A DNA stretch of 7,163 nt from Flavobacteriales bacterium (GTDB taxonomy: Bacteria > Bacteroidota > Bacteroidia > Flavobacteriales > Flavobacteriaceae): NCBI GenBank assembly GCA_003229235.1, contig QIIH01000403.1, positions 1 through 7,163 on the forward strand, written 5' to 3'. Each line of letters begins with the position of its first letter. The first letter of the stretch is position 1. A program made the translations under genes and the position numbers. Shown piece by piece: positions 4,621 through 6,877 of the stretch. The notes under the pieces are model-generated. The model was not told the DNA's origin, ran no database searches, and saw only the letters and a list, made by a program, of their open reading frames with translations.

Positions 4621-5679
4621 ATGATTTCAACCGATATCCTTATTATTGGTGCAGGCCCAACAGGTTTGTTTACTGTCTTCGAAGCAGGATTACTCAAGCT
4701 CAAATGTCATTTGATTGATGCACTACCACAACCCGGTGGGCAATGTGCAGAGATTTATCCTAAAAAGCCTATTTACGATATTCCGGCATTTCCTGAGATT
4801 TTGGCGGGCGATTTGATCAATAATCTAATGGAGCAAATCAAACCCTTTCAGCCTGGATTTACTCTTGGAGAGCGTGCTCAGACCATCAAAAAACAAGACG
4901 ATGGTAGTTTTGTTGTTACTACAAACAAAGGTACACAGCACAAAGCGCCAATAGTAGCCATCGCTGGAGGCTTAGGGAGTTTTGAACCCAGAAAACCTTT
5001 GCTAGATAAACTTTCAACTTTTGAAGATAAAGGCATCGAATATATAATTCGTGATCCAGAGCTATACCGCAACAAGCGAGTTGTAATTGCCGGTGGTGGC
5101 GATTCTGCTTTAGATTGGAGTATTTTTTTAAGTGATGTAGCAACTTCTGTCACTTTAATACATAGAAGATCAGAATTCCGCGGGGCGTTAGATTCGGTAG
5201 AAAAAGTACAGGAACTTAAAAATAATGGCAAAATTGCTCTTATCACCCCTGCAGAGATTATTGCCCTAGAGGGTGATGATGGTTTAAAATCTGTAGTAAT
5301 TAAAAAATCGAGTACTCAAGAAGAGATTAAGTTAGAAGTAGATCATTTTATCCCGTTGTTTGGCCTTTCTCCTAAGCTAGGCCCAATAGCCGATTGGGGA
5401 TTAGAGATCGAAAAAAATGCTATTAAAGTAGATAACGCATTAGATTATCAAACCAATATTCCTGGGATTTATGCCATAGGCGATGTAAATACCTATCCGG
5501 GCAAGCTTAAGCTTATTCTGTGTGGCTTTCATGAGGCAACAATGATGTGTCAAAGCGCTTATGGCAGGATATTTCCCGACAAACGCTATGTAATGAAGTA
5601 TACTACTGTTGGTGGGGTTCATGGTTTTGATGGTAGTAAAAAAGAAGCGCCTAAAGCGGTTGTAAAGAGTATACAATAA
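4621..5679 (+). CDS. Ferredoxin--NADP+ reductase, thioredoxin-reductase-like type
   Basis: The 352-residue flavoprotein moves electrons between NADPH and ferredoxin. It has the two dinucleotide folds of the thioredoxin reductase family: FAD-binding GAGPTG (10-15) with PGGQCAEIYPKK (38-49), NADPH-binding GGGDSA (158-163), HRRSEFRG (181-188, where basic residues suit the 2'-phosphate of NADPH), and the closing FAD motif YAIGDVNTYPGK (284-295). The redox-active CxxC of true thioredoxin reductases is missing from the NADPH domain, and the C-terminal extension (VMKYTTVGGVHGFDGS, 324-339) is that of YumC-type reductases (EC 1.18.1.2). A [2Fe-2S] ferredoxin encoded 862 bp downstream is the obvious partner; repeat-rich DNA now lies between the two genes. 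Confidence 0.92.
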   Translation: MISTDILIIGAGPTGLFTVFEAGLLKLKCHLIDALPQPGGQCAEIYPKKPIYDIPAFPEILAGDLINNLMEQIKPFQPGFTLGERAQTIKKQDDGSFVVTTNKGTQHKAPIVAIAGGLGSFEPRKPLLDKLSTFEDKGIEYIIRDPELYRNKRVVIAGGGDSALDWSIFLSDVATSVTLIHRRSEFRGALDSVEKVQELKNNGKIALITPAEIIALEGDDGLKSVVIKKSSTQEEIKLEVDHFIPLFGLSPKLGPIADWGLEIEKNAIKVDNALDYQTNIPGIYAIGDVNTYPGKLKLILCGFHEATMMCQSAYGRIFPDKRYVMKYTTVGGVHGFDGSKKEAPKAVVKSIQ

Positions 5680-5681
5680 CT

Positions 5682-5744
5682 AGTGAAAAGTGAAAAGTGA
5701 AAAGTGAAAAGTGAAAAGTGAAAAGTGAAAAGAGAACAGTGAAA
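5682..5744 (+). repeat. AGTGAAA heptamer tandem array
   Basis: Seven perfect copies of AGTGAAA run from 5682 to 5730, then one altered copy (AGAGAAC, 5731-5737) and one more perfect copy (5738-5744). It starts two bases after the reductase stop codon. Three further copies occur at 5898-5918 and two at 5997-6010. The period of seven rules out a coding repeat. Confidence 0.95.
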
Positions 5745-5781
5745 AAAAGTACACAACTCAACTATTACACGATTAAACAAT
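5743..5781 (+). repeat. 39-bp direct repeat, copy 1
   Basis: Identical over 39 bases to 5916-5954, 173 bp apart. It begins with six A's and GTACACAACTC and ends with CGATTAAACAAT. Both copies directly follow AGTGAAA heptamers, so heptamers plus the 39-mer form one larger duplicated block. Confidence 0.92.
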
Positions 5782-5801
5782 TAAGCGTTTCAACGGTTTA
5801 T
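5754..5801 (+). repeat. C-led octamer array
   Basis: Six consecutive 8-bp units all begin with C: CAACTCAA, CTATTACA, CGATTAAA, CAATTAAG, CGTTTCAA and CGGTTTAT. The unit CGATTAAA recurs in a second octamer run at 5862-5893 (with CGCTTCAA and CAGTTAAA) and again in the second 39-bp repeat at 5943-5950. Confidence 0.6.
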
Positions 5802-5802
5802 T

Positions 5803-5837
5803 CTCAAGACTCAAGACATAGGACATAGGACAAAAGA
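5803..5837 (+). repeat. Second heptamer family, CTCAAGA / CATAGGA
   Basis: Five in-phase 7-bp units: CTCAAGA twice, CATAGGA twice, then CAAAAGA. Each begins with C and ends with GA, differing from the AGT family but keeping the same period. Confidence 0.7.
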
Positions 5838-5861
5838 TTATGGAAAAATTAGTAACACCTT

Positions 5862-5893
5862 CGATTAAACGCTTCAACAGTTAAACGATTAAA
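5862..5893 (+). repeat. C-led octamer array, second run
   Basis: Four in-phase units CGATTAAA, CGCTTCAA, CAGTTAAA and CGATTAAA, related to the units at 5754-5801. AAACGCTT here is also the reverse complement of AAGCGTTT at 5783-5790, so the two runs could partly base-pair. Confidence 0.55.
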
Positions 5894-5915
5894 CAATAGT
5901 GAAAAGTGAAAAGTG

Positions 5916-5954
5916 AAAAAAGTACACAACTCAACTATTACACGATTAAACAAT
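5916..5954 (+). repeat. 39-bp direct repeat, copy 2
   Basis: Perfect second copy of 5743-5781, again preceded by AGTGAAA heptamers (5898-5918). The sequences diverge immediately after the final T. Confidence 0.92.
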
Positions 5955-5968
5955 AATAATTAATCAAT

Positions 5969-6143
5969 AGTAAATAGTAAATAGCGGAAAGTGAATAGTG
6001 AAAAGTGAAAAGTAGCTAGTAATTAGCAATAAAAGGTTATTAAATAGTATTGAGTAACTAGTAATCAGTAGTTAGTAAATAGTATTGAGTAACAAGTAAC
6101 AAGTAACAAGTAACAGGTAACCAGTAGCAAGTAATAAGTAATG
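5969..6143 (+). repeat. 25-unit degenerate heptamer array, mostly AGTnnnn
   Basis: Reading in steps of seven from 5969, 20 of 25 consecutive units begin AGT and two more begin AGC; the exceptions are 6032-6045 and GGTAACC at 6116-6122. Units include AGTAAAT, AGTGAAA, AGTAGCT, AGTAATT, AGTATTG and four successive AGTAACA (6088-6115). Phase is never lost over 175 bp. The last unit, AGTAATG (6137-6143), contains the start codon of the four-helix-bundle gene. No Bacteroidota promoter motif was found in it. Confidence 0.9.
6010..6026 (+). repeat. 17-bp inverted repeat, left arm
   Basis: AAGTAGCTAGTAATTAG is the exact reverse complement of 6501-6517, on the other side of the four-helix-bundle gene. 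It lies within the heptamer array, and the two arms are in the same heptamer register. Confidence 0.9.
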
Positions 6144-6490
6144 GCTGTAAAAAAGTTTGAAGATTTGTTGGTTTGGCAAAAATCTCAAGATTTAGCTGTC
6201 GCGGTTTATAGTGCTTTTAAGGACAATAAAGATTTTTCTTTCAGAGATCAAATAAAGAGAGCTTCTGTATCAATTTCGAATAACGTTGCTGAAGGATTTG
6301 ACAGAAATTCTAATGCAGATTTTTCAAGATTTTATATTTTTCTTTAGCTTCAAATAGCGAAGTAAGATCAATGTTGTATTTATCTATCAGATTAAATTAT
6401 ATTCAAAAAAAAGAGGCAGATAAATTAATTGAGAACACCAATGAAGTCTCTAGAATGCTTCACGGTTTAATCAAGTCAATTAAAAACTAG
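6141..6490 (+). pseudogene. Four-helix-bundle protein (S23 / rRNA intervening-sequence family), frameshifted
   Basis: The first frame gives 68 residues with the family hallmarks: FEDLLVWQKSQDLA (6-19), FRDQIKRASVSISNNVAEGF (34-53) and DFSRFYIF (60-67), then stops at TAG 6345-6347. The second half continues in another frame from 6341: SLASNSEVRSMLYL, then RLNYI, to TAG at 6488-6490, adding 49 residues. Restoring one T in the 5-T run at 6337-6341 joins the halves into about 116 residues, the normal family length. Relatives are small basic pentameric bundles found in 23S rRNA intervening sequences and as Avd of diversity-generating retroelements; their biochemical role is poorly known. The break is a recent decay event, a read error or, less likely, frameshifting. 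The start codon lies in the last heptamer of the upstream array and the stop in the downstream one. Confidence 0.82.
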
Positions 6491-6537
6491 CTACTATATA
6501 CTAATTACTAGCTACTTGTTATAAGCTACAATATCTA
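6482..6537 (-). repeat. Downstream heptamer array in inverted orientation
   Basis: On the plus strand five units end in ACT: AAAAACT, AGCTACT, ATATACT, AATTACT, AGCTACT (6482-6516), followed by three degenerate units to 6537. On the minus strand these are AGT-led heptamers of the family at 5969-6143. The array begins at the stop codon of the four-helix-bundle gene and ends five bases before the ferredoxin ATG. Confidence 0.75.
6501..6517 (-). repeat. 17-bp inverted repeat, right arm
   Basis: CTAATTACTAGCTACTT pairs perfectly with 6010-6026. In a transcript the arms could close a loop of about 475 nt holding the four-helix-bundle reading frame. Confidence 0.9.
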
Positions 6538-6541
6538 AATA

Positions 6542-6877
6542 ATGCAACAAGACATAAACATAATAATCATTGATAGGGAGGGAAAAGAACACCAAGTTCT
6601 CGCCCCTACCGATATGAATATGAATTTTATGGAATTAGTTCGCTCCTACGAACTTGCTCCCGAAGGGACCATTGGTATTTGTGGTGGAATGGCCATGTGT
6701 GCATCCTGCCAATGTTATGTAGAAAGTGATCACAAATTACCCGAAAAATCGGATGACGAAGAAGCCATGCTTTCTGAAGCCTTTAACGTAAAAGAGAATA
6801 GCAGATTAGGATGTCAAGTCCATATTCATCCAGAAATGGAGGGTTTAAGAATCACCTTGGCTCCCGCCGAAGAATAG
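6542..6877 (+). CDS. [2Fe-2S] ferredoxin, adrenodoxin type
   Basis: The 111-residue protein has the beta-grasp fold and cluster ligands of adrenodoxin-type ferredoxins: Cys47, Cys53 and Cys56 in CGGMAMCASC (C-x5-C-x2-C), with the fourth ligand Cys91 in SRLGCQVHI (87-95). An extra Cys58 follows the third ligand. The acidic stretch EKSDDEEAML (68-77) corresponds to the helix with which such ferredoxins dock to their reductases. It is the natural electron acceptor of the NADPH-dependent reductase encoded at 4621-5679; likely uses are iron-sulfur cluster assembly or a monooxygenase, but none is named by the context. No promoter consensus is visible in the short gap to the repeat array, so expression may depend on read-through from the reductase promoter. 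Confidence 0.93.
   Translation: MQQDINIIIIDREGKEHQVLAPTDMNMNFMELVRSYELAPEGTIGICGGMAMCASCQCYVESDHKLPEKSDDEEAMLSEAFNVKENSRLGCQVHIHPEMEGLRITLAPAEE

Follow-up and report, generated by a model that had tools for sequence, protein, structure and literature searches.

A phase-locked heptamer array beside a four-helix-bundle gene as a likely end of a widespread mobile element that has been overlooked

What is an array of 25 heptamers, most of them opening with the same triplet, doing at an operon junction of a flavobacterium, where it runs into the start codon of a four-helix-bundle (4HB) gene? We addressed this question in the window—the whole stretch of 7,163 nucleotides that was analyzed, which is the entire contig C69 of a genome of 2.27 Mb, 92% complete and spread over 511 contigs—and in 4HB loci of other genomes and plasmids. 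The features of the window are listed below.

4621..5679, plus strand: thioredoxin-reductase-like flavoprotein gene (called fnr), the host gene 5' of the unit; its stop codon is TAA
5680..5965, unstranded: composite repeat of AGTGAAA heptamers, 8-mer units resembling CGATTAAA and a CTCAAGACATAGGAC module
5969..6143, plus strand: left arm of 25 heptamers (20 with AGT, 22 with AG), with an ATG within the last unit
6141..6487, plus strand: 4HB gene (PF05635 23S_rRNA_IVP, TIGR02436), with a frameshift between about 6317 and 6347
6488..6541, minus strand: right arm of AGTNNNN heptamers read on the minus strand, the first ACT overlapping the gene end at 6486
6542..6877, plus strand: gene for a 2Fe-2S ferredoxin-like protein, the host gene 3' of the unit

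Between 5969 and 6143, AGT stands at the start of 20 of the 25 heptamers and AG at the start of 22. This regularity, the core of the original prediction, was borne out against chance: 2000 dinucleotide shuffles of the array never exceeded nine in-phase AGT units, and 300 shuffles of the whole intergenic stretch never exceeded seven. The earlier tally of identical units was right for AGTAACA (four times) and AGTGAAA (twice), whereas AGTAAAT occurs three times rather than two. As had been proposed, the array supplies the 4HB start codon, with the last unit, AGTAATG, holding the ATG at 6141-6143. The original prediction had overlooked both the inverted array 3' of the gene and the separate composite repeat at 5680-5965. 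By eye, the latter is found again on four other contigs of this genome (C16, C92, C114 and C290), none of which has a 4HB gene—4HB matches lie only on C69 and C242—and it probably represents an independent repeat that is nested next to the left arm. The 4HB gene itself is frameshifted: two parts of the family profile match 6171-6338 and 6317-6484 in different frames, with PF05635 E-values of 2.6e-19 and 7.3e-10 for the two gene pieces when searched apart. The copy in the window is therefore probably decaying or dead, or else mis-assembled through an error in the draft. Intact relatives of the frameshifted gene exist.

The right arm matches the left array in inverted orientation with a score of 21, equalled by 12 of 1000 shuffles, compared with 13 for the direct match, and folding pairs 6096-6130 with 6488-6522. 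The ends of the window's unit are complementary, at modest significance. The second 4HB gene of this genome lies on C242, next to a heptamer array, (AGTCAAT)4, and has a weak inverted match (12 versus 7 direct).

The comparison of arms was extended to two samples of loci. The named loci are the best 80 of at least 585 confirmed candidates from a scan of genome contigs, reduced to 79 as L130 was too short; the family loci are 30 of the best 4HB loci from 60 genomes of the window's family, 45 of which carry a 4HB match. Open reading frames were called mechanically, and the left flank was aligned locally with the reverse-complemented right flank, with p <= 0.01 over 200 shuffles as the threshold. 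In many genomes, the 4HB gene proved to lie between paired, inverted arms. Inverted matches were found in 56 of the 79 named loci (the best of at least 585) and direct matches in 12, with 23 loci of this set failing the threshold, and the family loci yielded 14 of 30 inverted and 3 of 30 direct. A score of at least 18 was reached by 49 of the 79 named loci (again the best of at least 585) and 11 of the 30 family loci, compared with 8 of 98 control reading frames from the same loci. The arms have a period of seven: lag-7 identity within the 60 nt beside the gene was 0.456 on the left and 0.477 on the right, versus 0.271 in 295 control windows, and it stays high at lags 14 and 21. When flanks were called period-7 if 17 or more of 28 positions matched at lag 7 within a 35-nt window, 106 of 158 qualified, versus 9 of 295 control windows. 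An association of such arrays with the 4HB family elsewhere, as originally predicted, is thus a real one, albeit in the form of two inverted arms rather than a single upstream array. A fixed AGT contact, in turn, had to be given up as a general rule: the fitted unit is AGWWNTD—A (0.84), G (0.89), A or T, A or T, any base, T (0.67), and A, G or T—such that AG plus a following A or T forms the core across many genomes, AGT is a local version, and copies differ widely. The contention that the array is something other than slippage decay of one repeat, and that its phase is constrained, holds; slippage decay was rejected because the phase-locked arrays come as inverted pairs that share matched words. 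The arms of three 4HB loci (L037, L054 and L057) have a period of 6 or 8 and are still inverted by eye.

The words of the arms are private to each copy and matched between its two ends. We examined 40 copies from three many-copy genomes and, with four copies, a fourth; significant inverted arms were present in 21 of the 40 and direct arms in four, the inverted ones numbering 11 of 15 in G007, 6 of 10 in G054, 4 of 11 in G038 and 0 of 4 in G047. The copies of G007 differ in their words—among them TGTATAA, GAGTTATGA, TAGCTGT and GGACAGAG—with each word common to the two arms of its copy. Across the 72 of 120 loci in which both arms are period-7, unit similarity was 0.66 between a copy's own arms, 0.475 with the arms of other copies and 0.438 without reverse complementing, and in 27 of the 72 the best-ranking right arm was the copy's own. 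A similar picture was obtained at one junction, fadB-fadA, where own arms scored 15.85, arms of other copies 11.3 and direct comparisons 8.1 (0 of 20000 permutations) in 20 of 23 copies, three having been dropped for short arms and the misparsed L177 kept. Moreover, protein identity correlates with unit similarity (rho 0.30; 0 of 500 permutations), which fits plain co-inheritance as much as cognate recognition. The copies within a genome are old, with a median protein identity of 0.24-0.31 and a highest value of 0.65, and no recent burst of copies was seen in the multi-copy genomes.

The 4HB genes lie in sense orientation within operons. Both neighbors are co-directional with the 4HB gene in 68 of 75 named loci (the best of at least 585), compared with 50 of 77 control triples (Fisher p = 1.7e-4), and the median gaps beside the gene in these best-of-at-least-585 loci are 52 and 50 nt. 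TAG serves as the stop codon in 51 of 97 genes directly upstream, versus 77 of 310 other genes (p = 7e-7). Where the heptad phase is clear, the AG of this stop codon keeps to it in 23 of 33 named loci (the best of at least 585), in 5 of 8 loci from the family set and, among the occupied fad junctions, in 11 of 17; at the fad junction, an upstream TAG stop accompanies 28 of 53 occupied or long gaps, versus 6 of 36 gaps of at most 31 nt. At the opposite edge, the final in-phase CT of the right arm is followed by A in 40 of 72 cases, versus 77 of 263 inside arms (p = 7.5e-5), and the enrichment of AA at this position was not significant (p = 0.10). Taking the TAG bias together with the A after the last CT, the unit therefore shows a tendency toward T-AG...CT-A, its left edge falling within the stop codon; cyanobacterial plasmid insertions do not all follow this rule.

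The occurrence of 4HB genes in sense orientation only would also suit an event at the RNA level, in which the arms pair in the polycistronic transcript and RNase III cuts there, the unit being tolerated because it is removed or insulated. The arms are able to fold on each other, and the accessible text of PMC4990558 describes the same protein family and complementary ends for the intervening sequences (IVSs) that RNase III excises. A stem in the sense RNA predicts, however, that GU-type mismatches are kept, and the counts went in the opposite direction, with 107 GU-type versus 178 AC-type mismatches in 109 of 158 loci—a comparison in which the A richness of the sense strand may hide an effect, and which left out the multi-copy loci L262, L277 and L287, these being identical with the family-set loci L032, L035 and L034. 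Because AC-type mismatches outnumber GU-type ones, RNA pairing is not favored by the data, and the wobble asymmetry gave no support to a sense-RNA stem as the selected feature. Likewise, a location in 16S or 23S rRNA had to be rejected, since the window's unit lies between two protein genes and no rRNA was detected at the Rfam gathering score in 19 other 4HB loci. Excision from RNA alone, furthermore, does not account for the end duplications described below, and we consider this explanation unlikely.

Units are present at some orthologous junctions and absent from others. The fnr-ferredoxin set comprises the 26 strongest ferredoxin loci (L062-L087, among them the window; four weaker loci were left out), and the reductase gene lies directly upstream of the ferredoxin gene in 22 of them. 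A 4HB gene is present at this junction in three (the window, G011 and G001) and absent from 19, where the gaps are -1 to 77 nt and which include three genomes of the window's genus. The N-terminal part of the window's 4HB protein is identical to the G011 protein at 48 of 67 positions, the next best of 26 others reaching 27 of 61. The G001 copy is incomplete and matches the first half of the profile only. For the fadB-fadA junction, the analysis covered 90 of 118 matching genomes: 23 hold a 4HB gene in sense orientation, none in antisense, 66 are without one and a single genome was assigned to neither class—empty meaning that no open stretch of 40 codons or more matched at E <= 1e-5, so that badly decayed copies count as empty. 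(Set A and this panel have several copies in common.) The gap is at most 7 nt in 26 of the 66 empty junctions. By eye, at least ten of the 29 gaps of 40-200 nt are gene-less hairpins built from two heptad arms; fold z-scores reach -2 or below in 14 of the 29, which include some palindromic inserts of other kinds. The fadB-fadA junction is a hot spot for hairpin-like insertions. It also holds GC-rich palindromic inserts in L228, L246 and L254, and an open frame in L196 that by eye resembles a RAYT-type transposase.

A yet closer view of filled and empty sites was obtained from plasmids, 24 records of which encode a 4HB relative, 15 of them in Nostocales genera; phage carriage was rejected, as one 4HB query returned no match in 50,697 phage records. 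Arms were analyzed in 11 of the 24 plasmid records, and in five of these 11 loci the arms are inverted (p <= 0.01) and contain, for instance, the heptamers CAGGGAA and AGGGTGT, while the copy in L311 has direct arms. Most of the 11 loci lie inside operons, and L308 is bordered by genes that run on the other strand. Plasmids, near-identical Nostocales ones among them, offer matching sites, filled and empty, seven of which were compared. At the first, the unit is present in Trichormus and Scytonema plasmids, and Nostoc linckia and Aulosira plasmids, 98-99% identical, are empty (two empty relatives read, four more listed); AAAAAGTAATTAACAAAT becomes AAAAAGTAAT-unit-GTAATTAACAAAT, with GTAAT duplicated, and L315 holds a decayed copy at this GTAAT site. 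At the second, the unit of L317 is bordered by TTCTA on both sides, and five relatives proved empty; a single base next to TTCTA differs, and the right side in L309 has TTCT only. One gene further on in the same operon, L305 carries a different 4HB unit with an imperfect duplication (TAATG/TTATG) where L309 is empty, although the intervening protein has an identical accession in both. At four further sites, the empty relatives are 90-93% identical, including PCC 7003 versus PCC 7002 at cas10-cmr3. All in all, a 5-bp duplication is clear at two of the seven sites (GTAAT and TTCTA), imperfect at one and resolved at none of the other four. By eye, L323, a 96%-identical plasmid, has a gene-less two-armed insert at the TraM site, and a 4HB gene of a Nostoc plasmid is itself split by another short insert (L316, 1140-1490). 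Three cyanobacterial loci (L302, L307 and L311) place the 4HB gene at cas junctions, two at cas6-cas4 and one at cas10-cmr3. Because PCC 7002 is without a 4HB gene at the same cas10-cmr3 junction, the gene in cas operons may be a passenger insertion; a figure legend on CRISPR-linked domains lists 23S rRNA IVP (PMC10910872, partial text).

Insertion as DNA is suggested by the defined edges and inverted arms, as well as by clean empty sites and the two duplications; the plasmid 5-bp duplications and the edge AG, which often forms the upstream TAG stop, support it without proving it. Could the 4HB gene and recombinogenic arrays instead have spread as passive passengers of ordinary homologous or illegitimate exchange, the protein being unrelated to the arrays? 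Solo arrays without a 4HB gene, which occur in the window's genome and count against a mobile unit, would then be expected company, as would copies that diverged long ago and the related 4HB genes found at one junction in three genera. Such exchange fits poorly, however, with inverted arms bearing matched private words in copy after copy, with neighboring junctions of one operon being filled or empty in close plasmids, and with the TAG edge bias, and we hold it to be quite improbable. Very improbable indeed is a reverse-transcribed element of the diversity-generating kind, in which the 4HB protein would act like Avd. PF05635 resembles Avd in sequence and fold according to the available part of PMC10053308, and the sense orientation in transcripts would suit such a route, yet RVT_1 is absent from 29 of the 45 4HB-bearing genomes, the window's own included, as are G006, G007, G019, G027 and G028, which have 8 to 16 4HB matches each; in total, 18 of the 60 genomes of the window's family have an RVT_1 match. 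The reverse-transcriptase route is unlikely for this reason.

Among known systems, the nearest are the IVSs of 23S rRNA in Leptospira and Coxiella, described as selfish in the accessible text of PMC4990558, where a protein of the S23p family and complementary ends cut by RNase III are reported. The unit has in common with them an S23p/PF05635 protein, complementary ends, a sporadic distribution and decaying open reading frames. The likeness extends to the heptamers directly before the start codon, as Coxiella strains differ in the number of GACAGAT heptamers preceding the S23p start (same text). Unlike rRNA IVSs as described there, our unit lies between protein genes of operons, both of its arms are heptad arrays with copy-private words, gene-less two-armed hairpins occur and duplications were found at two sites. 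We read the unit as an intergenic relative of the S23p-coding rRNA intervening sequences, likely mobile as DNA; we regard it as a variant of the IVS kind located outside rRNA, and there is a fair chance that it forms a class by itself. As to the arrays, STRR of cyanobacteria and the TAACTGA arrays of Beggiatoaceae and Bacteroidetes (PMC4679880) are likewise intergenic tandem heptamers whose copy number varies by whole units, but they are described as single, and the available text mentions neither a 4HB gene nor a second inverted arm. The original prediction knew of no described counterpart; the Coxiella heptamers (PMC4990558) and the TAACTGA arrays (PMC4679880) are in print, the link between 4HB genes and arrays being absent from what is accessible of both papers. 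Heptanucleotide elements also figure in the accessible part of a Geobacter genome paper (PMC2700814), and the open PMC literature, to which our survey of partial texts was confined to the exclusion of subscription papers, yielded nothing that joins 4HB genes to inverted heptamer arrays. Diversity-generating retroelements have a related four-helix-bundle protein, Avd (PMC10053308, partial text), and differ by their reverse transcriptase, since the window's genome, 92% complete, is without RVT_1.

Heptamers such as CAGGGAA flank cyanobacterial 4HB genes and may belong with the cyanobacterial STRR. Similar to insertion sequences, the unit has inverted ends, but these are arrays rather than one fixed sequence and, unlike a classical transposon or insertion sequence, it is without a transposase: the profile matches are to the 4HB family only, with no nuclease or transposase domain in the gene. 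REP/RAYT systems place a gene between inverted, hairpin-forming ends and leave gene-less hairpins at similar junctions; our unit differs from them in having heptad arrays as ends and no Y1 (HUH) transposase.

Since units are present at some and absent from other matching junctions, the array of the window probably marks one terminus of a mobile element that is widespread and has been overlooked. We propose that the unit consists of a period-7 array, a 4HB gene and an inverted array at an operon junction, that it is probably mobile DNA, and that its protein is predicted to recognize its own arms. The small S23/Avd-like protein, probably a five-membered ring, would bind AG-phased heptads at both ends and bring the two ends of the unit together. 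The solved 4HB relatives 2GSC and 2RLD have five chains each, with a pentameric ring for 2GSC given in literature cited by PMC4990558 (partial text), and five subunits reading seven bases apiece would cover about one arm. Cutting would be done by a putative nuclease, expression of the 4HB gene would depend on the host operon, and the arms of one copy may be kept alike via recombination or template switching between them.

On a larger scale, and only tentatively, since we lean slightly against it, the unit could belong to a superfamily moved by S23/Avd-type 4HB rings that read a copy-private heptad code, inserting at operon stop-start junctions across Bacteroidota, Cyanobacteriota, Bacillota and others; this superfamily could be the source of many STRRs, with rRNA IVSs as its ribosomal branch. 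Heptanucleotide arrays, several roles of which are reportedly discussed by MacGregor in 2015, have long been, to our knowledge, without a known function in cyanobacteria and Bacteroidetes. The architecture described here joins this puzzle to a second one, that of the common 4HB (S23) genes without a known function, and both become testable through the architecture that they share. It would also offer a plain reason for the presence of 23S rRNA IVS proteins in cas operons, where they could be mistaken for CRISPR accessory genes. Finally, mobile DNA with a helper-like protein whose address differs from copy to copy would be out of the ordinary.
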